From: Planktomarina sp.
GTDB lineage: Bacteria; Pseudomonadota; Alphaproteobacteria; Rhodobacterales; Rhodobacteraceae
Length of the DNA: 39,252 nucleotides
Assembly: GCA_028822275.1 (NCBI GenBank)
Contig: JAPKEA010000004.1
Location: forward strand, 1 to 39,252
Reading direction: 5' to 3'
The notes below the pieces were generated by a model that was given only the letters and a program-made list of their open reading frames with translations, did no database searches and was not told where the DNA came from. The translations under genes and the position numbers were made by a program. Position 1 is the stretch's first letter, and every line of letters starts with the position of its first letter. Below are positions 3,653 to 29,122 of the stretch, piece by piece.

Positions 3653-4696
3653 ATGCACAGTACAAAAGTCATCCACACAGTTTCTTGTCATGCAGAAGGA
3701 GAAGTTGGGGACGTGATTGTCGGTGGGGTATCCCCGCCACCTGGAGAAACCATTTGGGAGCAGCGTAAGTGGATTTCTGAGGACAACGTTCTACGAAACT
3801 TTATGTTAAATGAACCAAGGGGCGGGGTATTTCGCCATGTAAACTTGCTAGTTCCGCCTAAACACCAAGACGCTCAGGCTGCTTGGATTATTATGGAGCC
3901 CGAAGATACTCCACCAATGTCAGGGTCAAACTCTATATGCGTGGCTACAGTTTTGCTTGATACCGGTATCATCCCAATGCAAGAGCCCATTACAGATTTT
4001 ATTCTTGAGGCCCCCGGGGGCCTTGTGCGGGTGCGCGCCCATTGTGTAAACGGCAAAGCTGAGCGTATTGAAATCGAAAACCTGCCCTCCTTTGTAAGCA
4101 TGATAGGCGTACCACTTGAAATCGATGGATATGGTACAATCATGGTTGATACTGCGTTTGGCGGCGATAGTTTTGTCGTTGTTGACCCCACCTCACTTGG
4201 TCTCCACCTAGACGTAGATGAAGCCAAAAATTTGGCTGAACTTGGCGTGAAGATCACAAATGCCGCAAACGAGCAGCTAACGTTCCGCCATCCGCTACAA
4301 CCCGAATGGTGTCATCACTCTTTCTGCCTGTTTGCTGGTGCACTTGAACGCAGATCAGACGGCTTAAGATCAAAGTCGATCGTTTCCATTCAACCAGGAA
4401 AGCTAGACCGATCACCAACAGGAACAGCAGTCTCTGCTCGCATGGCACTACTTCATGCAACTGGCGAAATGAAGGTTGGTGAGAGCTTAACAGGTGTCTC
4501 AATAATTGGATCTGAATTTCATGGCAAAATATTGGGTGAAACAAAAGTTGGTGCAATCGAAGCAATTCGTCCACAAATAAGCGGGCGTGGTTGGGTTACT
4601 GGGACACACCAACACATGTTAGATCCAAACGATCCATGGCCGGAAGGTTATCGCATTGGGGACACATGGCCACGATATAAAAAGAGTATAATTTGA
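3653..4696 (+). CDS. proline racemase / hydroxyproline epimerase / trans-3-hydroxyproline dehydratase superfamily protein
   Basis: [19 protein letters not shown]-terminus, [12 protein letters not shown] and [12 protein letters not shown] active-site motifs. Confidence 0.88.
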
Positions 4697-8218: not shown

Positions 8219-10288
8219 TTAATCTATCGCAAGTTCGGTAACTTCTCGTCTGAATGGGAGCGCATCCCCAATGTCGTCGCCGTCCAATTCTCGAGCATAG
8301 CGGTGGCCCGCATATGTCGCCCAAGCGATTGGGCCAGGTGCATTTGCATCCCCAATCAGCTTGACCGTTTTAATACCAGCATCAGCCCATTCTCCCTCAC
8401 GCACTTTAAGATCATTGTAGACCCTGTTGTTTTCCAGCTTGGACGTCACCAACACGACAGCATCACATCCAATAGGCTGGGCTAGATCAGTAAATACACA
8501 GTTGGTCTCAATGTAATCTTTACCGATAGCTGTCACACCACGGTTAAGCTCAATTTTAACACCCATTTGTGCTAAACGGCGGTGTATCTCATGTTGCTCC
8601 AAGGTGTTTAGTGTCCACTCACTGACATAGGCCGCCGGGGTGACCAATGTCACACTGCATCCTTTTTGAATCAAAAGTTCGGCAATAACGCCACCCATGT
8701 AATAGTGATCATCATCAAAAATGACGATATGGCCAGTCGGATTGACCTCTCCCATTAAATCATCAGGCGTATAAATTTTCATCGCATCATCAGTTGGGAA
8801 AGGTACTACATGCTGCCGGGATACACCGTCGCGCCGCCATGAAGCACCCGTCGCAATACAAATATTTTCAAACCCAAATTCAAGAATACTTTCTGCATCC
8901 AACGCACTTTCAAAATAACTTTCAACATTTGCCTTTTGGCTGATCTGATACTCTCTGTAGTCGGCAACCCGTCCCCAAGCACTTAGGCCTGGAAGATGGC
9001 GTTCACGGGCCACGCGACCGCCTAATACCCTGCTGGCCTCAGCCAGAGCCACTTCATATCCACGTTCGGCCAATGCTCGTGTAGCCTCAAGCCCTGCTGG
9101 GCCTGCACCAATCACCAATGCATTGCTACTCACACCCTTGGCGTTCATCCGCTCTGGATGCCAACCTTTACGCCACTCCTCCATAAAAGTAGGGTTTTGA
9201 GTACAACGGCTGATCGACATAGTCATATCACCTGTGACACAAATATTGCATCCAATACACTCACGTATATCTTCAATGCGGCCTTCATCAATTTTATTTG
9301 GTAAAAAGGGATCAGCGATTGAAGGGCGTGCACAGCCGATAAAATCAAGTGTTCCACTGTTTATCATTTTTACCATAACGTCTGGACTAGTGAAGCGACC
9401 TACCCCAACAATAGGTCGGTCTGTGAGCTCATGTATCCCCTTAACCAAATCATGCTGTGCCGCCTCTTCCTTGAAGCGCGATGGGCCAGAGCAGTCTTCC
9501 CAAGTGCCTTGTGCCAAATCCCACAGGTCAGGTAAATTTTGGTTCATCTCTACAAATTCACGCACTTCAGCGTTAGAGAACCCCAAATCTCCAATGGTTT
9601 CATCCAAGGAAACTCTCAGAGTGATACCCATAGTATCGCCAATGGCATCTCGCATGTCCGATACAACTTCATTCACAAAACGTGCTCGGTTTTCGAGGCT
9701 ACCGCCGTATTCATCAGTCCGGTGATTTGTTGCTCGACTCAGGAAATGCTGGAAGATCCCAAAACCATGGGCACCATACAAACAGATCAAATCAAACCCT
9801 GCCTCCTTGGAGCGCTTTGCTGCGTTCACAAACCAACGACGCAAGTCTCGTATATCCTTTTTATCGAGGGCACGAGCCTGCACGGGATCATTGGTGAAAG
9901 TTCGAATAGGCTGCGCTGAGACCGCCAATGGGACCTCTTTAGTATACAGATTGGGACCATTTACACCGGAATAGGCTAATTGAATACCAGCCAATGCCCC
10001 ATGTTCCTTCATAGTCTCAGACATTTTTCGTAACATTGGGATATCTTTATCTTCCCAAAGACGCAGTTCGATAAATGGAGTGATTTCAGAGGTGTGATGC
10101 ATTTCACATTGTTCAGTGAAAATTACGCCCCACCCACCTTCGGCTTTTGATCCACGCATCGCAGCTGCAGCAGATGGGTCGCGGTAACCCCCTCCGTTGC
10201 AATGAGGCACTTGATAAAAACGGTTTTTGGCCATAACGGGACCAATTTTCATCGGCTCAAAAAGAATATCGTAACGAGGATCACGCAC
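8219..10288 (-). CDS. TMADH/DMADH/histamine dehydrogenase-family FMN/[4Fe-4S] amine dehydrogenase
   Basis: NRFYQVPHC (6-S-cysteinyl-FMN Cys30 in TMADH), ECIGCNIC...C iron-sulfur motif, ALVIGAGPAGLEATRALAERG nucleotide-binding domain; collinear with trimethylamine dehydrogenase. Confidence 0.9.
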   Translation of the reverse strand: MRDPRYDILFEPMKIGPVMAKNRFYQVPHCNGGGYRDPSAAAAMRGSKAEGGWGVIFTEQCEMHHTSEITPFIELRLWEDKDIPMLRKMSETMKEHGALAGIQLAYSGVNGPNLYTKEVPLAVSAQPIRTFTNDPVQARALDKKDIRDLRRWFVNAAKRSKEAGFDLICLYGAHGFGIFQHFLSRATNHRTDEYGGSLENRARFVNEVVSDMRDAIGDTMGITLRVSLDETIGDLGFSNAEVREFVEMNQNLPDLWDLAQGTWEDCSGPSRFKEEAAQHDLVKGIHELTDRPIVGVGRFTSPDVMVKMINSGTLDFIGCARPSIADPFLPNKIDEGRIEDIRECIGCNICVTGDMTMSISRCTQNPTFMEEWRKGWHPERMNAKGVSSNALVIGAGPAGLEATRALAERGYEVALAEASRVLGGRVARERHLPGLSAWGRVADYREYQISQKANVESYFESALDAESILEFGFENICIATGASWRRDGVSRQHVVPFPTDDAMKIYTPDDLMGEVNPTGHIVIFDDDHYYMGGVIAELLIQKGCSVTLVTPAAYVSEWTLNTLEQHEIHRRLAQMGVKIELNRGVTAIGKDYIETNCVFTDLAQPIGCDAVVLVTSKLENNRVYNDLKVREGEWADAGIKTVKLIGDANAPGPIAWATYAGHRYARELDGDDIGDALPFRREVTELAID

Positions 10289-10374: not shown

Positions 10375-11325
10375 TTAGGCTATGCTTAACTTTTCTGTAG
10401 CAACTGGAAGGCCTGGGTAACCCCAATTCGAAAGGGTTTCAGTCGCATTATTTATAAAGGCATCAACGGATAAAATGCTTCGCGCGCCCTTGGTTAAAAC
10501 GAAGCCCAAGCGCATCGGACGTTGGGTGCCTTCAAGCGGAATATAGCATAATTCTTGCCCATCTGGTGATAGATCCGAGTGCGGCCGAATATTAGCAACA
10601 GAGAACCCAAATCCATTAGCCACAAGAGAACGCATGACAGCCATATCCCGCGTTCGTTCAACAATATTGGGTGTGCAGCCAACCCGTTCAAATACACTCA
10701 TAAAATAAGTACGGCTCATGGGTAGATCAAGCAAAACCATGGGAAATTCTACCAGATTTTCAACAGAAACGGTCTCACATTGCGCCAAAGGATGATCTAC
10801 TGCAAATACGGCATAAAGAGGTAATGAACGCAGCGGTATGAATTCTAAATCAGGCGGAATCTCCAAGTCATAAGTCAGCGCAATATCAATATCAGCATGG
10901 CGCATTTTCTCGATAAGAGTTTGCTGATCACACTCGATTTGCGACACCTGGACATCCGCATATTGGGCGTGAAACTTGCGCCGGATAGCTGGGAGCAACA
11001 CTTGTGCAAAAGTCAAAAGGCACCCAATACTTAGAGGACCTTGAACGTTGCCAGATATCGCTCCCGCAAGGCGGTTCAAACTATCAGCTTCAGCCAGAAC
11101 TTTTCGTGCCTGTTCCATAAATTGCTTGCCCGGCTGTGTAAGGCTTAGTCCATGTGCATGTTTTCGTACAAATAAGGGCAGTCCAAATTCTTCTTCAAGT
11201 TGCGAAATCGCAGCGGAAATTGAGGGTGATGACACATTGACCTGCATACTCGCCTGCGCAATTGAGCCGTTTTCGCCAACGCTGACGAAGTATTCCAATT
11301 GCCTTAGGGTAAAACGTAAAGTCAT
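10375..11325 (-). CDS. LysR-family transcriptional regulator
   Basis: N-terminal HTH RQLEYFVSVGENGSIAQASMQVNVSSPSISAAISQLEEEFGLPLFVRKHAHGLSLTQPG. Confidence 0.93.
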   Translation of the reverse strand: MTLRFTLRQLEYFVSVGENGSIAQASMQVNVSSPSISAAISQLEEEFGLPLFVRKHAHGLSLTQPGKQFMEQARKVLAEADSLNRLAGAISGNVQGPLSIGCLLTFAQVLLPAIRRKFHAQYADVQVSQIECDQQTLIEKMRHADIDIALTYDLEIPPDLEFIPLRSLPLYAVFAVDHPLAQCETVSVENLVEFPMVLLDLPMSRTYFMSVFERVGCTPNIVERTRDMAVMRSLVANGFGFSVANIRPHSDLSPDGQELCYIPLEGTQRPMRLGFVLTKGARSILSVDAFINNATETLSNWGYPGLPVATEKLSIA

Positions 11326-12979: not shown

Positions 12980-13654
12980 TCATTCGTCCCCAGGAACTCC
13001 ATAGGATGGTGCATCTCGCGGATCGATAGCACGTTGGACGTAAGCGTCCATTTGAGGTTTGTAGACATTCCATGCTGCAGCTACGGTTTCAATTGGGCAA
13101 TCATCTGTCCAATCACAACGTAGTTCTGCCACAGGCCACGCCAATTTATCCACCATTAGCATCCCTGCAGAATGCAAGGGTCCAGCCTCTCCACCTGCGG
13201 CCAATCCCGCGCGCATCGCAACAATTAGGCGATCTCCAAGATGGCCAGAGCTTTCAAGAAATCCATTTACAATAGCCCGTGGAACAAGGTCATTCGCCAG
13301 CATGTTACCTCCAGAGGCTACGTCCATACCTTGAGCCTGCGTCCAAATTCCAAGTGAATTAGGACCAGAGTGGATCGCGGTTGCACCCTCTACGTCAACA
13401 GCCAAGACCTGACGGTATTCAATGAACTTTCCTTGCGCTTTGATGTATTCAATTGCTTCAGCTGACCCCATCCCACTTTGCATCAAATCGAGCGCCAATG
13501 GGCCCAAAGTAGGGTCAGTTACATTTTGCGACGCAACTGCGCCAACCCCTGCACGCGCGAAGGCACAACGTGCCGCGACCGCAGGTGACGATGACGATAT
13601 AGCTAAGCCAAACATGCCGGTCTCGGCACAACGAGCTACCAGTGAAAAAGTCAT
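12980..13654 (-). CDS. DUF1028 family protein (Ntn-hydrolase-like)
   Basis: TFSLVARCAETGMFGLAISSSSPAVAARCAFARAGVGAVASQNVTDPTLGP. Confidence 0.85.
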   Translation of the reverse strand: MTFSLVARCAETGMFGLAISSSSPAVAARCAFARAGVGAVASQNVTDPTLGPLALDLMQSGMGSAEAIEYIKAQGKFIEYRQVLAVDVEGATAIHSGPNSLGIWTQAQGMDVASGGNMLANDLVPRAIVNGFLESSGHLGDRLIVAMRAGLAAGGEAGPLHSAGMLMVDKLAWPVAELRCDWTDDCPIETVAAAWNVYKPQMDAYVQRAIDPRDAPSYGVPGDE

Positions 13655-14067
13655 TCCGGGATCACCGCAGTACCATCAATCTCAACAAGCCATTCTGGTC
13701 GAGCCAAGGCTTGCACGACGAGACCCGTAGAAACAGGGTGCACACCTTTGATGTACTCGCCCATTGTTCGATACACGGCCTCACGATGGCGTACATCAGT
13801 TATGTAGACTACTACTTTGACCAAATGTTCCATTGACCCGCCAGCCTCTTCAATTAGCTGACGAATGTTTTGCATCACTTTATGTGTCTGCTCAACGGGA
13901 TCATGGCTCATAATATTTTGAGCATCATCAAGGTTCTGCGGACATTGACCACGCAGCCAAACTGTCTTGCCGCCTTGGGTCACAACGGCCTGGCAAAGAT
14001 CATTATCTAGGCTTTGCTCTGGGTAAGTTTTTGCAGTGTTAAATTTTCGAATTCGAATGTGCTCCAT
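13651..14067 (-). CDS. RidA/YjgF/YER057c/UK114 family protein
   Basis: WLRGQCPQNLDD...NIRQLIEEAGGSMEHLVKVVVYITDVRHREAVYR...ARPEWLVEIDGTA; ATGA overlap with the DUF1028 gene. Confidence 0.88.
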   Translation of the reverse strand: MEHIRIRKFNTAKTYPEQSLDNDLCQAVVTQGGKTVWLRGQCPQNLDDAQNIMSHDPVEQTHKVMQNIRQLIEEAGGSMEHLVKVVVYITDVRHREAVYRTMGEYIKGVHPVSTGLVVQALARPEWLVEIDGTAVIPE

Positions 14068-14105: not shown

Positions 14106-15383
14106 TTACTCTGCGCCGGCACTAACAACCGCCGCCTCACCGTTATAATCTGCATAAGCGCGTTGGATAGCAATTTGATCAGCGACGAATTTGGCGTCAT
14201 GCCAAACACCCCATAGAAAAGTTGAACCGCGGCGCGATTGCCATGGAAGACCTAAAAAATATAAACCAGGCTCTTTAGAAACACCCCGTTGATGAATTGG
14301 AGCGCCTTTCTCATCAAATGCATCAACTTTAAGCCAGCTAAAATCCTGCTTATAGCCCGTTGCCCAGATAATAGTTGTGACATTCTCGTCAGCAAGATTC
14401 AAACTACGCAAAGGATTACTCAGGCTTGAGGGTTCAGGCCAAGCCTTGCGTGCTTCAGGCTCTAAGGGCAAATCAAGCCCACTCGCTAAAACATAGGCAT
14501 CAGCGGCATCCAACATGTCTGCATAGTTTTTATCGCCAGCAGCAATATTCATGCTGGCATCATCAGCAAAAGAAAGGGTTCCATCTAAAAAGCTCTCCGT
14601 GCGACCAACCAGCATCACACCCTCACTGGCCAAACGCCGAAAATCCATCGTACTGCCACCATATGCTCCACTTACAGAAATGGTGACGTGTTCAGTTCCC
14701 GGTTTTTGCGCCGCTAAATCCCAAAGGCCTAAAACACCTAACCACCAAACAAAATCACGATTGCGATACCTGCGAGGTGGGCGGTCATGTGGACCAACTG
14801 AAAGAACTACCTTGCGGCCTGCCCTATTTAATTCATCGGCAATTTGCGCTCCTGACGAGCCAGCACCCACAACCATGACTGCCCCTTCAGGCAGTTGTTT
14901 TGGGTTACGGTATTGGGCAGAATGTATCTGTTTAATACCGAGTTTCTCAGGTACTATCGACGGAATAATAGGTTGCTGAAATGCCCCCGTAGCCGATACG
15001 ATCCGCCTTGCTTCGATCACACCTTGAGTTGTCTCAACGTGAAAGCCGGCGCGTTCAATAAAGGGTCGAGCGCTTAAAACTTCTACGCCCGAACGTACAG
15101 TCGCATTCACCATTTCGGCATATTCTTCAATATACGCTACAACACGCTCTTTACCTACAAATTCATCCGGCGCGTTGCCCTTAAATTCTAGGTTCGGAAA
15201 ACGGTCATGCCAGACAGGACCATTTGTCATCAAAGCATCCCAACGGGATGTCCGCCAAGCCTCAGCAATTCGACTTTTTTCCAACACCAAATATGGAATA
15301 CCTTGCTTGCCCAGGTGCTCACTTAAAGCGATCCCCGCCTGCCCAGCGCCTACTATCAGGGTATCTATTATTTCAACTGACAT
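14106..15383 (-). CDS. FAD-dependent monooxygenase, CzcO/FMO-like
   Basis: VGAGQAGIALSEHLG, KQIHSAQYRNP (FMO-like motif), VVGAGSSGAQIADEL second Rossmann motif, IIWATGYKQDFSWL. Confidence 0.88.
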   Translation of the reverse strand: MSVEIIDTLIVGAGQAGIALSEHLGKQGIPYLVLEKSRIAEAWRTSRWDALMTNGPVWHDRFPNLEFKGNAPDEFVGKERVVAYIEEYAEMVNATVRSGVEVLSARPFIERAGFHVETTQGVIEARRIVSATGAFQQPIIPSIVPEKLGIKQIHSAQYRNPKQLPEGAVMVVGAGSSGAQIADELNRAGRKVVLSVGPHDRPPRRYRNRDFVWWLGVLGLWDLAAQKPGTEHVTISVSGAYGGSTMDFRRLASEGVMLVGRTESFLDGTLSFADDASMNIAAGDKNYADMLDAADAYVLASGLDLPLEPEARKAWPEPSSLSNPLRSLNLADENVTTIIWATGYKQDFSWLKVDAFDEKGAPIHQRGVSKEPGLYFLGLPWQSRRGSTFLWGVWHDAKFVADQIAIQRAYADYNGEAAVVSAGAE

Positions 15384-15495: not shown

Positions 15496-15543
15496 CTTAG
15501 GTAATAGCTAATTGTCATAAAAATGACCAAGTTTTCGCCTAAG
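15496..15543. promoter_or_regulatory. nested inverted repeats in the divergent FMO/potA promoter region (candidate operator)
   Basis: CTTAGG (15496-15501) / CCTAAG (15538-15543) enclosing GTCAT-aaaa-ATGAC (15514-15527); dyad centres about 1 bp apart. Confidence 0.4.
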
Positions 15544-15697: not shown

Positions 15698-16789
15698 ATG
15701 AAGGACCAAACGGACATTGCCGTCGAAGTACAAACCGCTGTAAAGCGTTATGGCAACTTTACGGCCTTGCACCGAATATCCCTCAGCATCCGTGATAATG
15801 AATTTTTCACATTGCTTGGGCCATCTGGCTGCGGCAAAACCACCCTTCTTCGGTTGATTGCTGGATTTGAAGATGTGTCTGAGGGTCAAATCTATTTGTT
15901 TGGAAATGAAATCGATACGCTTCCACCCCACAAACGCCCTGTGAATACAGTCTTTCAGAATTACGCCTTATTCCCTCACATGTCAGTTTTACAAAATGTT
16001 GCGTTTGGTCTTGAGATGCAAGGAAAATCATTGAGTAACGCGCGGAAACGTGCCGGAGAAATGCTTGAATTGGTCCAACTATCTCAGTACGCAAATCGAA
16101 AGCCTGCACAAATGTCAGGCGGGCAGCAACAGAGGGTTGCCCTAGCCCGTGCCCTTGCCCCACAGCCAAAAGTATTGCTGCTGGATGAACCTTTGTCAGC
16201 TCTTGATCTAAAGCTGCGAAAAGCCATGCAGCTGGAACTTAAGCACATTCAGCGTGAGACTGGGATTACTTTCATCTTTGTCACCCATGACCAAGAAGAG
16301 GCGCTCACAATGTCTGATCGAATTGCAGTCATGTCGAATGGAGCACTACAACAACTCGGAACCCCCAGGGATATTTACGAACAACCCCACAATATGTTTG
16401 TAGCCGATTTCATCGGTGATACTAATCTGCTTGAGGTTACTATTGAGGCGATCTCAGACGGGGATGCTAAGTGCCGTGTCGATGATAGTCACACGTTAAT
16501 ATGCCCCGCAGTTGAAACTGTTGCAGTGGGCGCGCGCCTTCACCTATCCATCCGGCCTGAGCGACTGTTTTTGACAGAGGAGGCAAGCGCGAACCAGAGC
16601 TTTAAGGGAACAGTCGTCGACAATATATTTATTGGGACAGATATCACAACAATCATAAAACTGGAAACCGGATCTCAAATAATGGTGCGAACATCAAACT
16701 CCGACAGGGGCAGCAAGCGCATCATCGACGTAGGGCATGATGCTTTCGTCAATATGGAATTAGGCGCCGCACGTCTACTGGCCGACTAA
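15698..16789 (+). CDS. potA: polyamine-type ABC transporter ATP-binding protein
   Basis: Walker A GPSGCGKTTLL, signature MSGGQQQRVALARAL, Walker B LLLDEPLSALD, C-terminal TOBE region. Confidence 0.93.
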   Translation: MKDQTDIAVEVQTAVKRYGNFTALHRISLSIRDNEFFTLLGPSGCGKTTLLRLIAGFEDVSEGQIYLFGNEIDTLPPHKRPVNTVFQNYALFPHMSVLQNVAFGLEMQGKSLSNARKRAGEMLELVQLSQYANRKPAQMSGGQQQRVALARALAPQPKVLLLDEPLSALDLKLRKAMQLELKHIQRETGITFIFVTHDQEEALTMSDRIAVMSNGALQQLGTPRDIYEQPHNMFVADFIGDTNLLEVTIEAISDGDAKCRVDDSHTLICPAVETVAVGARLHLSIRPERLFLTEEASANQSFKGTVVDNIFIGTDITTIIKLETGSQIMVRTSNSDRGSKRIIDVGHDAFVNMELGAARLLAD

Positions 16790-17718
16790 TGGCGAATGGC
16801 GACAGCAACTTAGGTGGATCATCCGCTACTGACGTCTATAGTAAAGCTCGCCATTGGTTATTGATGCCGTCTTGGGCAGTCCTGGGAACTTTTGTACTTG
16901 CACCTGTTTGCGTCATGTTAATCTATTCCTTCTTAACAAAAGAATTTCGTGGTGGCGTCATTTGGGATTTTTCCCTTGCCGCTTATGACCAGTTCTTTTT
17001 TGACCGAGGGCTGTTCGGCGATGGTGACCCAACATTACAATGGACCTATATAACAATATTCTGGCGTTCTATTTGGCAAGCAGGTTTAGCAACAATACTA
17101 GCATTACTAATTGGGTTTCCAACGGCTTATTATATAGCAACCCGACCCGAAAATACGCGCGCTCTATGGATCTTTTTGATCACCATCCCCTACTGGGTGA
17201 ATCTACTCATTCGAACCGTTTCGATGAAATTTCTGTTACGTGACGAAGGCCCTCTCAATGATTTACTCATAAGCACCGGCCTTATTGATGACCCCCTGCG
17301 TATTATCAATACGAACTTGGCAGTACAGTTAGGGTTATTTTATAGCTATCTACCTTTCATGGTTTTACCGATCTATGCCTCTGTTGAGCGGTATAATTTC
17401 ACTATGTCAGAAGCTGCGGCAGACCTTTATGCTTCGAAATGGAATACGTTGCGCCGTATTGTTCTACCTGCCGTGAAACCGGGTGTCGTTGCGGGGTGCA
17501 TTTTGGTATTTGTACCGAGCTTAGGAGCCTTTCTTGCACCTGATCTTCTAGGTGGTGCAAAAAACTTTATGATCGGTTCCTTAATTGAGGAACAGTTCAA
17601 AGGAAACGCAGGAAACTGGCCCTTTGGCGCTGCCGCTTCGATGATACTATTGACCTTGGTCATGACAGTCTTGCTTATCCTAGCGCGACCACAACGCAGC
17701 GCGGGGGCAAAAACATGA
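16789..17718 (+). CDS. potB: polyamine-type ABC transporter permease
   Basis: PotB-like membrane protein with EAAADLYASKWNTLRRIVLPAVKPGVVAG EAA loop; TAATG overlap with upstream gene. Confidence 0.92.
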   Translation: MANGDSNLGGSSATDVYSKARHWLLMPSWAVLGTFVLAPVCVMLIYSFLTKEFRGGVIWDFSLAAYDQFFFDRGLFGDGDPTLQWTYITIFWRSIWQAGLATILALLIGFPTAYYIATRPENTRALWIFLITIPYWVNLLIRTVSMKFLLRDEGPLNDLLISTGLIDDPLRIINTNLAVQLGLFYSYLPFMVLPIYASVERYNFTMSEAAADLYASKWNTLRRIVLPAVKPGVVAGCILVFVPSLGAFLAPDLLGGAKNFMIGSLIEEQFKGNAGNWPFGAAASMILLTLVMTVLLILARPQRSAGAKT

Positions 17719-18521
17719 GCCCCACCACAGACGTGAAGACTTATTCAGGTTTCAGACTGGCAACAATTTTTTGTATGGTGATACTCTATGCACCACTTAT
17801 AGTAGTAACTATCTATTCATTTAACGCATCAAACTCTATCACTGTTTGGAAAGGCCTGTCGTTCCGATGGTATGTGGACGTATTTATTGGCCCCGAAAGT
17901 ACTAAGTTCAAACAAGCAGCTTTAAATTCATTTTCTATCGCTTTCATTGCAGGCACTTTGGCCACATGCATTGCCACAGCGGCTGCAACAGCAATAGTAC
18001 GAGGCGGTCGATACCGACTGCGGGCTCCCTCCTTAGGCCTTATAACACTCCCAATCATGGTCCCTGAGATCGTGCTTGCTGTGGCAACATTAATCTTTTT
18101 TAATTCTATTGGATTTACGCGCGGCTATCTTACGATTCTCATTGCACACACTGCATTTTGTATTCCCTTTGCGTACTTGCCTATTCAAGCGCGGATGCAA
18201 GGGATCGAGGACAGTTTTGAGCATGCGGCTATGGATTTATATGCCACTAGGTCGCAAGCGTTCCGACGTATACTTTTTCCACTGATGTTGCCTGGCATCA
18301 TCTCAGGCTTCTTGCTGGCCTTTATTGTCAGCCTCGATGATTTCATCATCACCAACTTTGTTAAAGGGGCAGGTATTGAAACCCTCCCAACAGCAATCTT
18401 TGGCTCGGTGAAACAAGGGCTTAAGCCCAATATCATGGCGATCTCTACGATGCTTCTATGCCTCTCGATCGTGATGGTGACAATTTCCTACTTCATATCG
18501 AAGTGGGATAAAACAAAGTAA
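17715..18521 (+). CDS. potC: polyamine-type ABC transporter permease
   Basis: EHAAMDLYATRSQAFRRILFPLMLPGIISGFLLAFIVSLDDFIITNFVKG; ATGA overlap with potB. Confidence 0.92.
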   Translation: MSPTTDVKTYSGFRLATIFCMVILYAPLIVVTIYSFNASNSITVWKGLSFRWYVDVFIGPESTKFKQAALNSFSIAFIAGTLATCIATAAATAIVRGGRYRLRAPSLGLITLPIMVPEIVLAVATLIFFNSIGFTRGYLTILIAHTAFCIPFAYLPIQARMQGIEDSFEHAAMDLYATRSQAFRRILFPLMLPGIISGFLLAFIVSLDDFIITNFVKGAGIETLPTAIFGSVKQGLKPNIMAISTMLLCLSIVMVTISYFISKWDKTK

Positions 18522-18539: not shown

Positions 18540-19568
18540 ATGAAACTTATGACAAAAACTGCTATGGCCTTAGCCTTGATAGCGAATTCTGCTGCTGCGA
18601 ATGGCGAACTCGTAATCTATCACTGGTTTGAGTATATGCCCGCAGAGTTGCTTGAAAAGTTCACAGCTGAAACAGGAATATCAGTCACCATGGATACGTT
18701 CGACTCGAACGAAGCCATGCTCGCATCACTGAAAGCCGGCGGCATGGGCACTTATGACGTTGCCGTACCAGGTGATTATATGGTTGCCATTATGGCAAAT
18801 CAGGGCTTGCTCGATACGATTGCAGACGGAGAGCTATCCAACAAAGGAAATATCTCACCCGCATGGGCAGACCCTTCTTTTGATCCAGGCCGCAAACATT
18901 CTATTCCTTATCAGTGGGGCTCAACATCCTTTTCGGTCAACACTGATGATTATGCTGGTGACATAAACACAACTGATATTCTGTTTAATCCGCCAGCTGA
19001 GCTTTCAGGCAAAATTAATATGCTCGACAGTCAAGGCGAAGTAATGGCTCTCGCATCACTACACATGGGCTTCCCACAATGCTCAAGTGATAGAGAGCAA
19101 TTACAGGCCCTAAATGATATGCTAGAGGAGGCAAAAAAGCATTGGGCGTCGTTCAATTCAGACACCGCACGTGAAGTTTTAGTATCGGGAGATGCATCTG
19201 TTGGAATGATCTATGACGGTTTCAGCGCAAAGGCCCGCGAAGAGCGCGCCTCCATTAAATACGCCTTCCCAACACAAGGCTACGTTGTTTGGATGGATAA
19301 CGTTGTCCTCTTAAATGACGCCCCAAACCGCGATAGCGCAATTGCGTTCATGGACTTCATGCTTGTACCAGAAAACATAGCGGCAGTTTCAAATTATGCG
19401 CGTTATGGCTTGGGTGTCTCAGGCGCCGAAGAATACCTTGATCCCGCATTGGCAACATTGCCAGAATCAAACCCACCAGCAACAGCAGGCGACGGAGCGT
19501 TTATCGAAGTTTGCGACCAGGCAACACAGACAATATATGACCAAATTTGGACGAACCTTAAAAACTAA
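18540..19568 (+). CDS. potD: polyamine-type ABC transporter substrate-binding protein
   Basis: Signal peptide then ELVIYHWFEYMPAELLEKFTAETGISVTMDTFDSNEAMLASLKAG. Confidence 0.92.
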   Translation: MKLMTKTAMALALIANSAAANGELVIYHWFEYMPAELLEKFTAETGISVTMDTFDSNEAMLASLKAGGMGTYDVAVPGDYMVAIMANQGLLDTIADGELSNKGNISPAWADPSFDPGRKHSIPYQWGSTSFSVNTDDYAGDINTTDILFNPPAELSGKINMLDSQGEVMALASLHMGFPQCSSDREQLQALNDMLEEAKKHWASFNSDTAREVLVSGDASVGMIYDGFSAKAREERASIKYAFPTQGYVVWMDNVVLLNDAPNRDSAIAFMDFMLVPENIAAVSNYARYGLGVSGAEEYLDPALATLPESNPPATAGDGAFIEVCDQATQTIYDQIWTNLKN

Positions 19569-19589
19569 GCTAACGTTGGTCCACCGATT

Positions 19590-19620
19590 GGCGGCCTTTT
19601 TCCGGAGGCCGCCATTTTTA
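19590..19620 (+). terminator. rho-independent terminator after potD
   Basis: ggcggcct-ttttccgg-aggccgcc followed by attttta. Confidence 0.85.
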
Positions 19621-19800
19621 ATTTAGGAGCAAGCTGATTAAATAATCATGGCTGCGCGTGCGAGGCACTAGCTCCCACGCAGGCCCACCCAGCAGATTAG
19701 CTTTCCTGACGCGGTAGCGGGTTGGATGAGTGCTTGGGTCAAGGTTAAATCTGATGTAATATAGAATAAATTAGTCATAATATCAGCGAGGCTGTCTAGC

Positions 19801-20490
19801 ATGAAAGCCGCATACAAGGATGTCAAATCGGACATCTTGTCAAAGATCACCAAAGGGGAATGGGCTCTGGGCAGCCTTATTCCCAATGAAGTAGATCTTG
19901 CCACGACTTATGGCTGCGTGCGTTCCACAGTAAACCGCGCGATGCGCGAGCTTGCTGATGAAGGCCTTATTGAGAGACGTAGAAAGGCAGGTACACGTGT
20001 TCGGATGACTCCAATCCGTCAAGCGCGGTTTGACATCCCCATTGTGCGTGCCGAAATCGAGGCAAAAGGCGCGGAATACCGTTATTCTCTTGTCAGCAGT
20101 TCTGTTGAACCAGCACCAGATTGGTTGCGCGCGCGGCTTAAACTATCCAAAAAAAGCGAAGTTTTGCGTTTAGTTTGCATGCATTATGCTGATGGTGATC
20201 CTTACCAGCACGAAGATAGATGGATAAATCTTGTTAGCTTGCCTCAGGCGCAAACAGTAAATTTTTCAGATGTAGGGCCGAATGAGTGGCTTGTTTCCAC
20301 AATACCATTTTCGGACGTTGAAATCAGTTTTTCGGCGGGGTTAGCTGATCAAAGACTGAATGATTACCTGACCTGCGCCTTGGGCGATCCAGTTTTTACC
20401 ATCGAACGGTCAACATGGTGGGAGGGGCAGGCAGTCACCTATGTTCGGCTTACGTACAAGCCTGGTCACCGTTTGACGACCCGGTACTAA
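19801..20490 (+). CDS. hutC: GntR-family (HutC subfamily) transcriptional regulator, likely histidine-utilisation repressor
   Basis: wHTH GSLIPNEVDLATTYGCVRSTVNRAMRELADEGLIERRRKAGTRV, UTRA-like C-terminal domain; adjacent to hut genes. Confidence 0.85.
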   Translation: MKAAYKDVKSDILSKITKGEWALGSLIPNEVDLATTYGCVRSTVNRAMRELADEGLIERRRKAGTRVRMTPIRQARFDIPIVRAEIEAKGAEYRYSLVSSSVEPAPDWLRARLKLSKKSEVLRLVCMHYADGDPYQHEDRWINLVSLPQAQTVNFSDVGPNEWLVSTIPFSDVEISFSAGLADQRLNDYLTCALGDPVFTIERSTWWEGQAVTYVRLTYKPGHRLTTRY

Positions 20491-20505
20491 ACCGAAAATG
20501 CACTA

Positions 20506-20538
20506 CTGCCATCATCTGACAGCAGCGCAATTTTTTTT
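20506..20538 (+). terminator. possible terminator between convergent hutC and hutU
   Basis: ctgcca-tcatc-tgacag imperfect stem followed by an 8-T run. Confidence 0.4.
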
Positions 20539-22204
20539 ATAAAATACCAGGGAGGTTCAGCCCACTTTCACGTGCGCAATCCAGCGCATCGCCATAGCCT
20601 GCATCAGCATGGCGCATCACACCTGTGGCTGGATCGTTCCACAGAACCCGCCCGATCCGGCGGTCTGCGTCCTCAGTGCCATCGCAGCAGATTACCATGC
20701 CAGAATGCTGCGAGAACCCCATTCCTACGCCACCGCCGTGGTGCAGGGAAACCCAAGTGGCGCCAGAGGCAGTGTTTAGGAGTGCATTCAACAAAGGCCA
20801 GTCCGACACAGCGTCGGAGCCATCTTTCATGCTCTCTGTTTCGCGGTTTGGCGAAGCAACGGAGCCAGAATCGAGGTGATCACGGCCAATGACAATCGGG
20901 GCGCTCAACTCACCCGTGCGTACCATCTCATTAAAGGCGAGGCCCAGCTTGTGACGGACACCCAGGCCAACCCAGCAAATGCGCGCGGGCAGACCTTGGA
21001 AGCTAATCCGCTCACGGGCCATATCGAGCCAATTATGCAAGTGCTTATCTTCAAAGAGGATCTCTTTGACCTTAGCATCAGTTTTATAAATGTCCTCAGG
21101 GTCGCCCGACAGCGCCACCCAGCGGAACGGGCCGATGCCACGACAGAACAGTGGGCGTATATAAGTAGGTACAAAACCGGGGAAATCAAAGGCATTCGCC
21201 AGTCCTTCTTCCAGCGCCATCTGGCGAATATTGTTTCCATAATCAACCGTCGGGATACCAGCAGCATGGAAATCCACCATCGCTTTGACCTGTACTTTCA
21301 TCGAGGCCCGGGCGGCTTTCTCAACGGCCTTTGGGGCGCTCTCACGTTTTTCTTTCCATTGCGCCATTGTCCAACTTTGTGGCAGATAACCATTTATTGG
21401 ATCGTGGGCCGAGGTTTGATCAGTCACGATATCAGGACGCACACCGCGTTTGACCAATTCAGGGAAGACGTCGGCCGCATTGCCTAACAAGCCGACGGAT
21501 TTAGCCTCGCCTGCGGCGGTCCAACGTTCGATCATCTCTAATGCTTCGTCTAGTGTTTCCGCCTTTTCGTCGACGTATTTTGTCCGCAGTCGGAAATCGA
21601 TGCTGTCGGGATTGCATTCCACAGCGAGGCAGCAGGCACCAGCCATTACCGCGGCTAATGGCTGGGCACCACCCATGCCACCAAGACCTCCCGTTAGGAT
21701 CCACTTCCCTTTGAGTGAGCCACCGTAGTGCTGGCGGCCAGCCTCGACGAATGTTTCATAGGTCCCTTGAACGATGCCTTGAGAACCAATGTAAATCCAA
21801 GAGCCAGCCGTCATCTGGCCATACATCGCAAGGCCCTTTTTATCGAGCTCATTGAAATGGTCCCATGTGGCCCAATGCGGCACTAGATTGGAGTTAGCAA
21901 TCAGGACACGCGGCGCGTCTTTATGGGTCTGGAACACGCCAACAGGCTTTCCAGATTGCACCAGCAACGTCTGGTCTTCTTCCAGTTCACGCAGGGAGGT
22001 GACGATCATGTCAAAGTCTTTCCACGTCCGTGCTGCGCGGCCGATGCCACCATAAACTACAAGTTCATGCGGGTTCTCAGCCACGTCAGGGTGCAAATTG
22101 TTCATCAGCATGCGCAGGGGCGCTTCGGTTAGCCAGCTTTTGGCAGTAAGTTCGTTGCCAGTAGCGGGAAAGATGTCACGGGTGTTCTTGCGCGGATCGC
22201 TCAT
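20537..22204 (-). CDS. hutU: urocanate hydratase
   Basis: [70 protein letters not shown]. Confidence 0.97.
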
Positions 22205-23001
22205 GATACGCCTTTCATGGTGGGGGCCAACGCGGCCAGTTGTGTCAGGATAGATTTAAGGTGTGGGCGCAGGCGTGCGGCCTTGCTCCGGTCAAAGGTC
22301 CACGGGCCAGCTTCTTTGGCTAGGTAGGTGCTCTGTGCAAGTTCCATCTGGATCGCGTGCAACCCTTCATCAGGGCATCCATAATGGCGCGTTGTCCAGC
22401 CACCTTTGAAGCGGCCATTGGTGATTGAGGTATAACCTACAGCAGTGTTGCACACCGCTTGGGTCGTCGACTCGATGTCACAGGCGCAGGTGGTACCAAG
22501 GTTTGTGCCAATGTTGAAATCAGGCAGGATGCCATCAAATAGAAATGGAATGTGTGAGCGGATTGAATGACAATCATAGAGGATCGCTAAGCCATGAAGG
22601 TTGCGAACCCGCTCCAACTCGGCCTGCAGGGCGGCGTGGTAGGGAGCGTGAAACATCCGTTGTCGGGTTCTGACATCACCCTCGTCAGGTGGAGTCTTCC
22701 AGATATCATGGCCGTCAAAATTGGTCAGTGGGACTAATCCTGTCGAGTTCTGCCCCGGATAAAGCGAGGCACCAGTTGGATCACGGTTGGCGTCAATAAC
22801 ATAACGATGAAAGGTGGCCCGCACAGTTGTAGCGCCCGCTAGTAGACCATTATAGAGAGTATGAATATGCCAATCGGTATCATCGAGACCACGTCCACAA
22901 AGGTTTAGATCTGCAATAATAGTATCGGGAATGTAAGTTCCAGTGTGCGGCAAACCGAGCACGATTGGGCTATTTCCCTGATAAATTTCTACCGGTTTCA
23001 A
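22201..23001 (-). CDS. hutG: N-formylglutamate deformylase/amidohydrolase
   Basis: [57 protein letters not shown] overlap with hutU. Confidence 0.94.
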
Positions 23002-24536
23002 GCGGAAAGTTCCGGCATGGCCACGCCTGCGGCGGTCACGATATCACCACTTGAAATGATTGCGGCAGCGAGTTCCAGATCTGGGGCCAGGTAGCGGTCT
23101 TCGCCCATGGTGGCCACATCCTCGCGAACCCGCGAAACAACACGCTGCAAAGTTTCACTCGTTTTTAGTGGTGCACGGAAATCGATACCCTGTGCGCCAC
23201 ATAGCAACTCAACCCCAAGAATAAACTCAAGGTTTGTGACCATTTGCCCCAAGCGTCTGGCGCCGTGTGCGGCCATGCTCACATGGTCCTCTTGGTTGGC
23301 GGAAGTCGGCGTGCTGTCGGTCACACATGGGTTTGCCAGATGTTTGTTTTCACTCATAAGGGCGGCGGTGGTGACTTCGGCAATCATATAACCACTGTTT
23401 AGACCCGGATTAGGCGTGAGGAACGGTGGCAGGTTAAAGCTGAGAACCGGATCGACAATGAGCGCGACCCGACGCTGCGCGATAGCACCAATCTCAGCGA
23501 TTGCCAGCGCGATCATATCAGCGGCAAATCCTACGGGCTCGGCGTGAAAGTTACCACCTGAGACGATTAAATCAGCTTCGACCAAAACCAATGGGTTATC
23601 CGTCGCGGCATTGGCCTCAATCTCGAGCGTATGGGACGCCATACGTAAAACATCCATTGCAGCACCAGTGACCTGTGGCTGGCAGCGGATGCAATATGGG
23701 TCCTGGACGCGTGCATCATCGACCATATGACTATCGCGGATTTTAGAGCCCACAAGAAGAGCAGACATGGTCTCACCCGCCTCGATCTGGCCACGGTGAC
23801 CACGAAGCAAGTGGATTTCGGGCTGCAACGGGGCAGTCGACCCCATGATTGCATCCGTGGACAGCGCCGATGTGATCAACGCCGCATGTGCGGCCCGCCA
23901 AGCACCAAATAGTCCGGCAAGGGCAAAAGCGGTGGAGAATTGTGTGCCGTTGATTAGCGCTAGGCCTTCCTTTGGGCCAAGATCAACAGGGGTTAACCCA
24001 GCGGCAGATAGCGCCTTGGAACCCGACATGACCTGACCCTCGAACTCAGCCTCGCCATAGCCCATCATGGCGGCGGCCATGTGCGCAAGGGGCGCCAGAT
24101 CGCCCGAGGCACCGACAGAGCCTTGCGCGGGAATGACAGGAGTGACCCCTTTCTCAAGCATCGCCTCAATCTGATCTACGATCTCAAGACGTACGCCAGA
24201 TGCACCACGCCCAAGGCTTAAAAGTTTAAGCGCCATTAAAAGCCGCACGTGGGGGCGTGGAATCGCAGGGCCAACACCGCAGCAATGCGATAAGATCAGA
24301 TTGCGCTGCAATGTGGCTGTGTCCTTGGAGGCTATTTTTACAGATGCAAGTTTGCCAAAACCCGTGTTTACGCCGTAAACTGCATCGGTGCCAGCGACAG
24401 CCTTTGCAATGCAGGCCTGAGCGCGTTCAATAGCTGGGCGGCACAGGGGGTCAAGACGCACTGCTGCCTCTGACCAATAGATTTTGGCCAAATCAGCTAG
24501 AGTGACAGCGCCGGGTATCAGCGTAAGTGTGGTCAC
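22998..24536 (-). CDS. hutH: histidine ammonia-lyase
   Basis: MIO motif [17 protein letters not shown] start at 24536 ([12 protein letters not shown]) with ggaggt upstream and GTGA overlap with the hutI stop; preferred over ORF-track start 24617. Confidence 0.96.
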
Positions 24537-25759
24537 AATATACCTCCAAAAATGCGAGAATGTAAGGGGTTGAAACCGATGCGGTAGGCGAGTTCTGCAG
24601 GGTGTTTGACGTCCCAAACGACCAGGTCAGCGCGCATACCTTTTTTGATAAGTCCCGTGTCGGAAAGCCCGAGTGCAAGTGCCGCGTTGATGGTAACGCC
24701 GCGCAGCGCCTCTTCTGGCGTCAGACGAAACAGGGTGCAGCCCATGTTAAGCGCCAGCAGCAAAGAGTGAAGCGGCGACGAGCCTGGATTGATGTCCGTG
24801 GCCAACGCCATGGGAACACCGTGTTTGCGCAATAGGTCGATCGGCGGCGCTTGGGTTTCTCGCAATGTGTAGAAGGCACCGGGCAAAATGACGGCAATTG
24901 TGCCCGCATCCACCATGGCTTTGACGCCATCTTCGTCAAGATATTCGATGTGATCTGCTGACAACGCGCCATAGCTGGCGGCCAGTTTGGCACCACCACT
25001 GTTTGAGAGTTGCTCTGCGTGGAGCTTCACGGGCAAGCCCAATTCACGCGCAACATCAAAAACGCGCGCAATCTGCGATGGGTTAAATGCAATGCCTTCG
25101 CAGAACCCATCCACGACATCTACCAGACCTTCGGCATGGGCGGCGCGGAGGGTCGGAATGCAGACCTCATCAATATAGTTGTCATCTCGGCCAGTGTATT
25201 CTGCAGGTGTGGCATGTGCCCCAAGAAAAGTGGTTTTTACCCGGATCTGGCGATTTTTGGCGATTGATCTAGCCACCCGTAGCATGCGCAGTTCGGTATC
25301 TGTTTCAAGGCCATAACCTGACTTGATTTCGATGCTGGTCACACCTTCAGCAATCAACGCGTCAACGCGGCGTAGGGCGTCGCGCAGGAGTGTGTCTTCT
25401 GAGGCAGATCGCGTTGCGGTTACGGTAGAGACAATTCCACCACCAGCGCGTGCCAACTCTTCATAGCTCGCACCCTTCAATCGCATTTCAAATTCCACCG
25501 AACGATCACCTCCATGCACAATGTGGGTGTGGCAGTCGATCAGACCGGGTGTAACAGTGCGACCATCAAAGCTTTCACGAGGCAGACTTGCGAAGGCTGT
25601 AGGTAATTCTGCGACTGGTCCAACCCACGCAATCACCCCTTCAGTTATGGCTATAGCCGCGTTTTCAATCATTCCATAGGCGTCTTGGTTCTCGCACATC
25701 GTTGCTGCGTTAAGGTCAACAAAGAGCTTGCTGGTTTTCATCATCTTCAGGTTATCCAT
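24533..25759 (-). CDS. hutI: imidazolonepropionase
   Basis: [82 protein letters not shown]. Confidence 0.97.
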
Positions 25760-25799
25760 GACACAAATTATTCTTTTATAATACGCAATAATCTGTATT

Positions 25800-25811
25800 A
25801 TGTCTATACAT
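25800..25811. promoter_or_regulatory. candidate HutC operator between hutI and hutF
   Basis: ATGTCTATACAT contains GT-N-TA-N-AC, the described HutC-subfamily core, in the 73-bp divergent intergenic region. Confidence 0.5.
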
Positions 25812-25832
25812 AAAGTTTGAAAAGGCGCCTAA

Positions 25833-27191
25833 ATGATTTTTGCAAAACAAGTCAAACTGCCTAGCGGTTGGGCGAAAAATGTGCGTTTGACCTTCACTAG
25901 CGGGCGGATCACCGCCATTGATGTTGGGCAGAACCCAGAGGCGTCGGATGTGGTGGTGGACACTGTTCTGCCGGCACTGGCCAACTTGCACAGTCACAGT
26001 TTTCAACGCGCGATGGCGGGTATGACCGAGTTTCGCATGGCTGGTAAAGATAGCTTCTGGACGTGGCGTGATTTGATGTATCGGTTTACGGCGAACCTTA
26101 CGCCCGATCATATCGAGGCTATTTCAGCTTTCGTCTTTCTGGAGATGCAAGAGGCGGGCTATGCCAGTGTTGGCGAGTTTCATTACCTACATCATCAACC
26201 AGGAGGTACCCCTTATGAAGATCCAGGTGAGTTATCAGCCCGCATTGCCGCGGCTGCGGAGAAGACGGGTATTGGCCTGACACATTTGCCGGTTCTATAT
26301 ACATATGGCGGGGCTGGGAAGGTGCCGCTTGAGGCGGGTCAGGCCCGATTTGGAAATTCCGTTGATCAGTTCAACGCCTTGGTTGGACGTGCCCAAGAGG
26401 TTGTAGCCGATCTGCCTGCAGACTGTCTTGTAGGCATAGCACCGCATTCATTGAGGGCCACGTCACCAGAAGATTTAAAGGCTGTCCTTAAGGTACATGG
26501 CTCTGGCCCCGTTCATATTCATATTGCAGAGCAACCCAAAGAGGTGGCCGATATTCAAGGTTGGCTTGGCGCTCGGCCAGTAGAATGGTTACTTGCCAAT
26601 GCCAATGTGACATCGCGTTGGTGCCTGATCCACGCGACCCACATGACCACAGAAGAGACCGTACATATGGCGCGGTCTGGCGCGGTTGCCGGTCTTTGCC
26701 CTGTGACAGAAGCAAATTTGGGCGATGGGGCGTTTAATGGTCCTGGTTACTTGGCCGAAAATGGGGTCTTCGGCATCGGGTCGGATTCAAATGTCTTAAT
26801 CTCGCTGACTGAAGAATTACGCACCTTGGAATATTCGCAGCGCCTGCGCGACATGGCGCGCAATGTAATGGTGGTGGGTGAAGGCCCTGTCGGCGAAGCG
26901 CTTTATATGGGTGCTGCAAAAGGTGGAGCGCAGGCTTTGGGTCGTGGCACGGGTACCATTGTCATCGGCGAATTGGCGGATCTGGTTGCGATCGACAGTA
27001 CATCGCCCACACTTTGCTACCTCCGCGATGACCAGCTTTTGGACGGGCTGGTCTTTGCCGCCAAAGATGCTGTTGTGACGGATGTTTGGTCAGCGGGACG
27101 TCATGCGGTCAAATCGGGGCGCCATATCAGCCACAATGAGATTACGACTGCTTACCGGGCCACGATGCAAAGCTTGATAGCACTACTCTGA
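25833..27191 (+). CDS. hutF: N-formimidoyl-L-glutamate deiminase
   Basis: LPALANLHSHSFQRAMAGMTEFRMAGKDSFWTWRDLMYRF, GIAPHSLRAT, HIHIAEQPKEV. Confidence 0.95.
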   Translation: MIFAKQVKLPSGWAKNVRLTFTSGRITAIDVGQNPEASDVVVDTVLPALANLHSHSFQRAMAGMTEFRMAGKDSFWTWRDLMYRFTANLTPDHIEAISAFVFLEMQEAGYASVGEFHYLHHQPGGTPYEDPGELSARIAAAAEKTGIGLTHLPVLYTYGGAGKVPLEAGQARFGNSVDQFNALVGRAQEVVADLPADCLVGIAPHSLRATSPEDLKAVLKVHGSGPVHIHIAEQPKEVADIQGWLGARPVEWLLANANVTSRWCLIHATHMTTEETVHMARSGAVAGLCPVTEANLGDGAFNGPGYLAENGVFGIGSDSNVLISLTEELRTLEYSQRLRDMARNVMVVGEGPVGEALYMGAAKGGAQALGRGTGTIVIGELADLVAIDSTSPTLCYLRDDQLLDGLVFAAKDAVVTDVWSAGRHAVKSGRHISHNEITTAYRATMQSLIALL

Positions 27192-27757
27192 GGCAAATAA
27201 GTAAGGCGGATTTCCATGAGTGCGTCGCCTGGATTGAGGTTGAGTATCGCCTTTGTCGTTTTGGCGAAAGCGGTGTCACCCAGGCCGAGCCGCGTTGCGT
27301 TTATGGAGGGCTTTCCTGACAGTACATGAAAGCCGACGATGCCATCTTTGGGCGGCGCGACAGCCATTGTGGACGGCCCGCGATGTGTGACCACCTCGCC
27401 CGTGCAATCGGTTGGGTCAAACATCAGGTTCAGGTCAATGAGTGGGCCGTCTCTAAGCTGCGATGAAATCTTAAGGCTTCCGTCAAATTGGACGGGTTGC
27501 CAAAGGTCAGCGTCAAGCATGCCCCCTGCATGTTTCAAAACCATGCCACCACCTGACACCACTGTCAGTATGCGCGTAAGACCTGCAAATTCCGAAAAGG
27601 CACCATCTTGGTCCACGTCTGCACGGCTTAGTCGCCATGCGGTCTTTTCATCCATCTTGCCTGCTGCAATTTCACGAGTCGTGCCACCACCATTTTTCCA
27701 AGGCACCTCAACAAGGTCACTGCAACGTAGAAAGTCCATTAGTTTCATTCCATCCAA
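27152..27757 (-). CDS. hutD: HutD family protein
   Basis: LVEVPWKNGGGTTREIAAGK...WRLSRADVDQDGAFSEFAGLTRILTVVSGGGMVL. Confidence 0.9.
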   Translation of the reverse strand: MDGMKLMDFLRCSDLVEVPWKNGGGTTREIAAGKMDEKTAWRLSRADVDQDGAFSEFAGLTRILTVVSGGGMVLKHAGGMLDADLWQPVQFDGSLKISSQLRDGPLIDLNLMFDPTDCTGEVVTHRGPSTMAVAPPKDGIVGFHVLSGKPSINATRLGLGDTAFAKTTKAILNLNPGDALMEIRLTYLPQSSAIKLCIVAR

Positions 27758-27970
27758 TTTTTAAAGCCACATCACTTGAGCAGATCTCAATTGAGACGCG
27801 CAAATTACAATAATATCATCTATGTGCGTTTTTTTAAATTATATTGATGAACTTATCATGTGGGTATATGGCAGATTGCCTCGAGTTTGAGCCACATTAA
27901 AAACAACTTGATTTTCTTATTATTCGTTTGAGAATGTTGAAAACTCACCCAACAATGGCAACATGATTAT

Positions 27971-28079
27971 GAGCAGGCAATACAAACTATCTATGAGCAA
28001 ATCTAGACGAACGTTAAAAACTAAGCCAACATTGGTCGAACACTAGGCGGCCTTTTCACGGAGGCCACCATTTCTATTT
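27971..28079 (+). pseudogene. decayed potD 3' end plus its terminator (second copy)
   Basis: Matches 19514-19624 at roughly 80% by eye; reading frame EQAIQTIYEQI*TNVKN* versus DQATQTIYDQIWTNLKN* (Trp codon replaced by TAG); terminator ggcggcct-tttcacgg-aggccacc retained. Confidence 0.85.
28046..28075 (+). terminator. terminator copied from the potD locus
   Basis: ggcggcct tttcacgg aggccacc atttct; one G-U pair in stem. Confidence 0.65.
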
Positions 28080-28090
28080 AAGGAATAGGT

Positions 28091-29122
28091 ATGGAAACTA
28101 TATTTACTGAACGTCATCAGCTGAGAAACTCTAAGACCGAATTGTTTGGTGGCGAACTTGTCGAACCCTTCGAACGCCCTTCGCGTGCTGAAGATATCAT
28201 CAGTAGAGTACATGACGTTACACTCGGGCCAGTCAATGTTCCAGATGATTTTGGACTAGGTCCAATTTTGGCCGTCCATGATGAAAGCTTCATCAATTTC
28301 CTACAAGTTGCTTGGAGTGATTGGCAAAAGGAGGGGTTCCAGGGCGAAGCAATTCCAACAGTTTGGCCGGCACGCCGCACGTCAACCCGCATTCCTAGGT
28401 TTATTGAAGGCCGGCTTGGCTATTACGCACTATCCTGTGAAACTTCAATTTCGGAAGGCACTTGGGAAGCCGCATACGCTTCAGCGCAGGTTGCACTCAC
28501 AGGGGCCGAGCGAATACGGCAAGGGGCACGTTCCGTCTTCTCGCTGTGCCGCCCCCCCGGACACCATGCCGCAATAGATATGTACGGAGGCTACTGTTTT
28601 ATAAATAATGCCGCTGTTGCGGCTCAATATTTACGCGATAATGGAGCTAAGCGTATCGCAATTCTTGATGTAGATTTCCATCACGGAAACGGCACGCAAG
28701 ACATCTTTTTTGCCCGGGATGATGTTCTTTTCATTTCATTGCATGGCGATCCAATGGATGCCTTCCCACATTTTCTAGGACACCGCGATGAGAAAGGCAC
28801 CGGTGCAGGTGAGGGCTTTACCGTCAACTACCCATTGCCTCCAGGCACAGATTTTTTAACTTGGCGCGCTGCTTTAGCCGAGGCGCTAATGCAAATATCA
28901 GATTATGCCCCAGATGTTCTAATCGTCTCACTTGGTGTCGACACATTTACGGCGGATCCTATAAGTTTTTTCAAACTCTGTTCAGACGATTTTACGACTT
29001 ATGGTGCGGATATTGCCACATTGAACCTCCCCACATTGTTCATCATGGAGGGCGGATATGACATTGCTGAAATAGGAGTGAACACGGTTAACGTTCTTAA
29101 AGGCTTTGAGAGTAATTTATGA
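28091..29122 (+). CDS. histone deacetylase family protein / acetylpolyamine amidohydrolase
   Basis: RPPGHHAAIDMYGGYCFINNAAVAA, AILDVDFHHGNGTQDIF, LIVSLGVDTFTADP, FIMEGGYDI. Confidence 0.93.
   Translation: METIFTERHQLRNSKTELFGGELVEPFERPSRAEDIISRVHDVTLGPVNVPDDFGLGPILAVHDESFINFLQVAWSDWQKEGFQGEAIPTVWPARRTSTRIPRFIEGRLGYYALSCETSISEGTWEAAYASAQVALTGAERIRQGARSVFSLCRPPGHHAAIDMYGGYCFINNAAVAAQYLRDNGAKRIAILDVDFHHGNGTQDIFFARDDVLFISLHGDPMDAFPHFLGHRDEKGTGAGEGFTVNYPLPPGTDFLTWRAALAEALMQISDYAPDVLIVSLGVDTFTADPISFFKLCSDDFTTYGADIATLNLPTLFIMEGGYDIAEIGVNTVNVLKGFESNL

Follow-up and report, generated by a model that had tools for sequence, protein, structure and literature searches.

A histamine dehydrogenase gene of the Rhizobium type and its hin-like neighbours in Planktomarina sp., a probable histamine degradation cluster

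In Pseudomonas, histamine is broken down by HinC, HinD, HinF, HinL, HinH and HinG, hinF-L-H-G form one operon, and the LysR protein HinK responds to imidazole-4-acetate (PMC8231116). HinF is an FAD monooxygenase, HinL an enamine deaminase, and HinH and HinG are amidases (PMC6467879). A different enzyme acting on histamine, histamine dehydrogenase (HDH), is characterised from Rhizobium sp. 4-9 (6DE6, UniProt Q60I59) and Nocardioides simplex (3K30). Substitutions at Tyr171, Phe176, Trp263, Asp265 and Asp354 of the Rhizobium enzyme mostly abolish activity on histamine; its pocket aspartate, Asp354, corresponds to Asp358 in N. simplex, and agmatine and 1,3-diaminopropane are also used, at ~10-13% of the histamine rate (PMC10180351). 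The open literature searched yielded neither a metabolic context for HDHs nor a description of an HDH-led hin-like operon. Here, we describe such a gene arrangement in the window, which is the whole analysed stretch of 39,252 nucleotides.

The dehydrogenase and its active site

The open reading frame in question is a real gene:

8219..10288, minus strand, HDH of 689 aa with a GTG start, assigned by its 77% identity to 6DE6, its pocket and its position in a tree

The best match of its product among solved structures was 6DE6 (phmmer E = 0, 1256 bits), far beyond chance, and the 77% identity to this Rhizobium enzyme extends over the full length. The identity was 54% to the N. simplex enzyme, 45% to the 6-hydroxypseudooxynicotine amine oxidase HisD (6L6J) and 41% to trimethylamine dehydrogenase (TMADH, 1DJN), while the closest relatives of all (86-89%) were found in Octadecabacter, Lentibacter and Phaeobacter loci, which by homology places the source in the Rhodobacterales. 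In the databases, the plasmid genes nearest to it go under 'FAD-dependent oxidoreductase' or 'NAD(P)-binding protein', and no NCBIfam model reached its cut-off with the window protein, bearing out the expectation of the initial annotation that an automatic label would be generic. By sequence, the gene is a further HDH of an already known, crystallised enzyme type. A structure model of the protein was weak (mean pLDDT 71, with pocket loops below 50) and says nothing on pocket geometry.

The residues for both cofactors are in place. Cys30, in NRFYQVPHC, aligns with Cys30 of 6DE6, 3K30 and TMADH, as expected for 6-S-cysteinyl-FMN, and Cys344, Cys347, Cys350 and Cys362 form the CxxCxxC motif plus downstream cysteine of a [4Fe-4S] cluster. 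In the pocket, Gln60 lies in FTEQ, Trp263 in GTWEDCSGPSRF and Asp354 in CVTGD; together with Glu74, Asn110, Tyr171, His174 and Asp265, they make up the residue set of an HDH pocket. With Ile69, Phe72, Phe176 and Arg225 added, twelve pocket and catalytic residues were compared; the window protein agrees with 6DE6, which comes from a different organism, at all 12, and likewise at Cys30 and the four Fe-S cysteines. The N. simplex enzyme shares the Gln/Trp/Asp pocket and the Ile69, Phe72, Glu74, Asn110, Tyr171 and His174 positions, but has Tyr for Phe176 and Gly for Asp265 in our alignment.

The initial annotation had described an alignment to TMADH free of gaps both through residue 60 and across the iron-sulfur motif, with Gln, Trp and Asp at the positions of the TMADH Tyr60/Trp264/Trp355 bowl. 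The alignment is indeed uninterrupted up to residue 60, and the three pocket residues are present. However, TMADH carries three more residues right before its Trp264 and one more in the Fe-S loop, and therefore Asp354 adjoins the Trp355 column in the sequence alignment instead of standing opposite it. Because of these gaps, it is the published structure comparison, not the sequence column, that places the Asp at the Trp355 position.

Phylogenetic analysis (IQ-TREE quick mode, LG+G4) of 77 rows, among which there was no dimethylamine dehydrogenase (DMADH) of known activity, united the window protein, 6DE6 and 3K30 in one clade (SH-aLRT 99), whose rows carry Cys, Gln, Ile, Phe/Tyr, Glu, Asn, Trp and Asp at positions 30, 60, 69, 72, 74, 110, 263 and 354, respectively. 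TMADH paired with locus L148, far from the window protein, so that the separation from TMADH proposed as a check on the original assignment held.

Could the protein nevertheless be a TMADH, a DMADH or an amine oxidase of a nicotine pathway (HisD/Pno type)? All belong to one superfamily and have the cofactor motifs and the fold in common; Methylophilus TMADH (1DJN/2TMD) also shares Cys30, the Tyr/His pair and the Fe-S motif. DMADH is reported to carry Gln at position 60 too, and Gln60 alone is therefore weak, non-diagnostic evidence; among the homologues compared, Glu74, Asn110 and Asp354 discriminate better. These three residues, the tree position, the neighbouring genes described below and identities of only 41-45% to TMADH and 6L6J versus 77% to HDH make this group of alternatives extremely improbable. 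The TMADH identity itself was rejected, since TMADH lies on another branch and the window protein has Gln60/Trp263/Asp354 in place of the Tyr60/Trp264/Trp355 bowl. HisD, for its part, differs in having Ala at the flavin-Cys position, another pocket and another branch.

The neighbouring genes and the proposed pathway

Upstream of the HDH gene and co-directed with it lie five genes:

10375..11325, minus strand, LysR-type regulator, candidate HinK (imidazole-4-acetate sensor); Pfam LysR_substrate/HTH_1, best PDB matches 6m5f and 3fzv, the latter from P. aeruginosa (PMC2881104)
11451..12950, minus strand, aldehyde dehydrogenase of the PuuC/BADH type, candidate HinD; Pfam Aldedh 7e-163, NCBIfam PuuC 614 bits, below cut-off
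12980..13654, minus strand, DUF1028 protein, candidate HinH; PF06267 2.3e-58, Thr2 as candidate N-terminal nucleophile
13651..14067, minus strand, Rid-family protein (enamine/imine deaminase family), candidate HinL; PF01042 4.7e-20; shares 4 nt with the start of the DUF1028 gene
14106..15383, minus strand, FAD/NAD(P) flavin monooxygenase (FMO), candidate HinF (imidazole-4-acetate monooxygenase); Pyr_redox_3 7e-29, NCBIfam MSMEG_0569 family 360 bits, below cut-off

These genes correspond to Pseudomonas hinF-L-H, hinD and hinK by family, order and published description; the equation of HinH with DUF1028, likewise, is drawn from the agreement of gene order and description and not from direct sequence comparison. 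Putative roles and order match those of the hin pathway (HinA-L) of P. putida U and P. aeruginosa, while three differences are apparent: the Pseudomonas pathway starts with the transaminase HinC and the window set with HDH; HinA is a permease, whereas the window has an ABC transporter; and hinG, part of the Pseudomonas hinF-L-H-G operon, is not adjacent in the window. No hinG remnant was found 3' of HDH in the window, nor an intact hinG (M20/ArgE-type) in the draft genome (completeness 87%, contamination estimated at 7%). The genome does contain a 95-aa fragment, at which contig C390 ends, that shares 71% identity with the HinG-like proteins encoded next to HDH in Mesorhizobium. The order FMO-Rid-DUF1028-ArgE/M20, which matches hinF-L-H-G (PMC8231116, PMC6467879), is found again, as one unit, on plasmids of Klebsiella and Mycolicibacterium, and the same genes surround HDH in Parasedimentitalea.

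We consider it very probable that the window encodes an HDH of the Rhizobium type acting as the first step of an operon-encoded histamine degradation pathway. In the proposed scheme, HDH would stand in for the HinC transaminase and oxidatively deaminate histamine to imidazole acetaldehyde and ammonia using covalent FMN; the [4Fe-4S] cluster would relay the electrons, with electron-transferring flavoprotein (ETF) as the most likely acceptor. EtfB is present in the genome. By analogy with HinD, the candidate aldehyde dehydrogenase would convert imidazole acetaldehyde to imidazole-4-acetate, the HinF-like monooxygenase would oxidise the imidazole ring, and the HinH-like DUF1028 and HinL-like Rid proteins would act on the product by opening and deamination, leading towards formyl-aspartate and aspartate. 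Imidazole-4-acetate is probably the signal to which the HinK-like regulator responds.

The association of HDH with these neighbours was assessed in two comparisons. Of 88 loci encoding the HDH pocket, 67 have at least two of the FMO, Rid and DUF1028 genes nearby, versus 0 of 37 other TMADH-superfamily loci, the flank lengths differing somewhat between the two sets. Among 150 sampled genomes of the family, a DUF1028 gene was present in all 27 HDH-positive ones (HDH of at least 64% identity) versus 33 of 123 others (p = 2e-13, relatedness ignored).

Several HDH loci contain further genes of note. An EtfB-like gene lies near two clusters (L029:18716-19471; L031) and fits ETF as the electron acceptor. 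An HpaB-family (4-hydroxyphenylacetate 3-hydroxylase) gene near hinF/Rid in eight loci (e.g. L014:6118-7647) and a Rieske-type oxygenase, judged by eye, in seven (e.g. L086:943-2088) are possibly alternative ring oxygenases. In a Klebsiella plasmid (L088:4822-13498), hinF-L-H-G-like genes stand with a cytosine permease, a GMC oxidoreductase and an aldehyde dehydrogenase, and this cluster may serve the degradation of a different imidazole compound.

The DUF1028 protein has Thr as residue 2 in 69 of 69 homologues. Its structure model was confident (pLDDT 92.5), with 2IMH as the top fold match (TM 0.84) and weaker matches to proteasome subunits, HslV and class 2 asparaginase (E about 1e-3, TM 0.33-0.49); a literature search on DUF1028 found nothing. 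As modelled, the protein would fit a Thr N-terminal nucleophile (Ntn) hydrolase that either opens the ring or acts in a hydrolysis further on, the choice of step being a guess. A wider proposal, which we regard as tentative and a little short of evenly balanced, is that HDH-led hin operons constitute a widespread alphaproteobacterial histamine catabolism, with a dehydrogenase for the transaminase, in which DUF1028 is a Thr Ntn hydrolase opening imidazolone-acetate or hydrolysing formimino-aspartate.

Transporter, inserted genes and substrate

Upstream of the hinF-like gene lie a palindrome and a divergent set of transporter genes:

15497..15511, no strand assigned, palindrome TTAG-N7-CTAA, proposed from its recurrence in relatives as a candidate operator through which LysR would control the hinF-led operon
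15698..16789, plus strand, ABC transporter ATPase, PotA-like, candidate histamine importer; divergent from the operon and kept near HDH in many relatives
16789..17718, plus strand, ABC permease 1 (BPD_transp_1)
17715..18521, plus strand, ABC permease 2 (BPD_transp_1)
18540..19568, plus strand, periplasmic binding protein, PotD-like, candidate histamine-binding protein; PDB putrescine/spermidine-binding proteins 1e-53, NCBIfam PotD below cut-off

The palindrome is the sole exact copy in the window and is not significant alone (38 of 100 shuffles contain at least one). Among homologous genes, 36 of 62 for hinF and 36 of 81 for HDH have it in the first 350 nt upstream, against a background expectation of 0.025 per 350 nt. 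The PotABCD-like transporter is a candidate histamine importer.

Beyond the binding-protein gene, the window continues as follows:

19515..19628, plus strand, 114-nt direct repeat, copy 1, comprising the 3' end of the binding-protein gene and downstream sequence
19801..27757, no strand assigned, inserted histidine-utilisation (hut) block between the binding-protein and histone-deacetylase (HDAC)-family genes
19801-20490, plus strand, hutC
20537-22204, minus strand, hutU
22201-23001, minus strand, hutG
22998-24617, minus strand, hutH
24533-25759, minus strand, hutI
25833-27191, plus strand, hutF
27152-27757, minus strand, hutD
27971..28084, plus strand, 114-nt direct repeat, copy 2, on the far side of the hut block and 81% identical to copy 1; a broken leftover of the binding-protein 3' end
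28091..29122, plus strand, HDAC-family (acetylpolyamine amidohydrolase-like) hydrolase, which in relatives forms one continuous stretch with the ABC genes
29119..31158, plus strand, amidase-family protein (NF005127, 952 bits), contiguous with the HDAC-family gene in relatives

The GC content of the hut block is 0.51-0.56 versus 0.45-0.48 in its surroundings. In the relative G074, the genes run continuously as hinG-HDH-LysR-ALDH-DUF1028-Rid-FMO, ABC, binding protein, HDAC-family and amidase, and no hut block separates the binding-protein and HDAC-family genes. The hut block, with the 114-nt repeats on either side, appears to have been inserted inside the histamine cluster (window 19515-28084). 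Searches for hutH in G074, G072 and the same-genus genome G045 found none, and HDH was not found in G045 either; the absence of both from G045 makes the hut block and HDH look accessory. Elsewhere in the window, a trans-3-hydroxy-L-proline dehydratase gene was identified at 3653-4696 (NCBIfam equivalog, above cut-off).

Another question is whether histamine is the main substrate or a side substrate of what is mainly a polyamine or diamine dehydrogenase (agmatine, 1,3-diaminopropane, putrescine). The nearby polyamine-type ABC transporter and HDAC-family gene, the PuuC-like aldehyde dehydrogenase, and agmatine and diaminopropane as secondary substrates of the Rhizobium enzyme speak for the latter. 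Against it, the pocket matches a histamine-preferring enzyme residue for residue, and the conserved hinF/Rid/DUF1028 genes, for which we know of no role in polyamine breakdown, fit the breakdown of an imidazole ring; we thus regard a mainly polyamine-directed enzyme as very unlikely. Other amines may still matter in the cell, given the side substrates of the Rhizobium enzyme and the transporter nearby. The HDAC-family hydrolase and the large amidase might release histamine from N-acyl forms and so feed HDH, an addition compatible with histamine degradation. In G074, both genes continue directly from the ABC genes, and an HDAC-family match was found in 12 of 80 loci, but most HDH loci lack them within 10 kb and the substrates of both families are broad, so that such feeding seems rather unlikely. 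The initial proposal of a histamine-type substrate instead of trimethylamine is thus supported, as far as sequence can indicate, by the tree, the 77% identity, the identical pocket and the ring-degrading neighbours, and the last of these also favour histamine over methylamines or diamines.

Significance of the conserved neighbourhood

The enzyme type was already known, while the gene set around it carries only generic annotations; as a cluster, these genes resemble a nearly complete histamine route. HDHs serve as histamine sensors in food safety, and the conserved neighbourhood gives them a metabolic context along with ~80 further natural HDHs. A candidate regulator site also emerges from it, and the function of a DUF1028 protein becomes testable. 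In marine as well as soil bacteria, the generic label 'FAD-dependent oxidoreductase' masks a specific amine dehydrogenase, and, if the wider proposal is true, DUF1028, a family still labelled as unknown, would gain a function.
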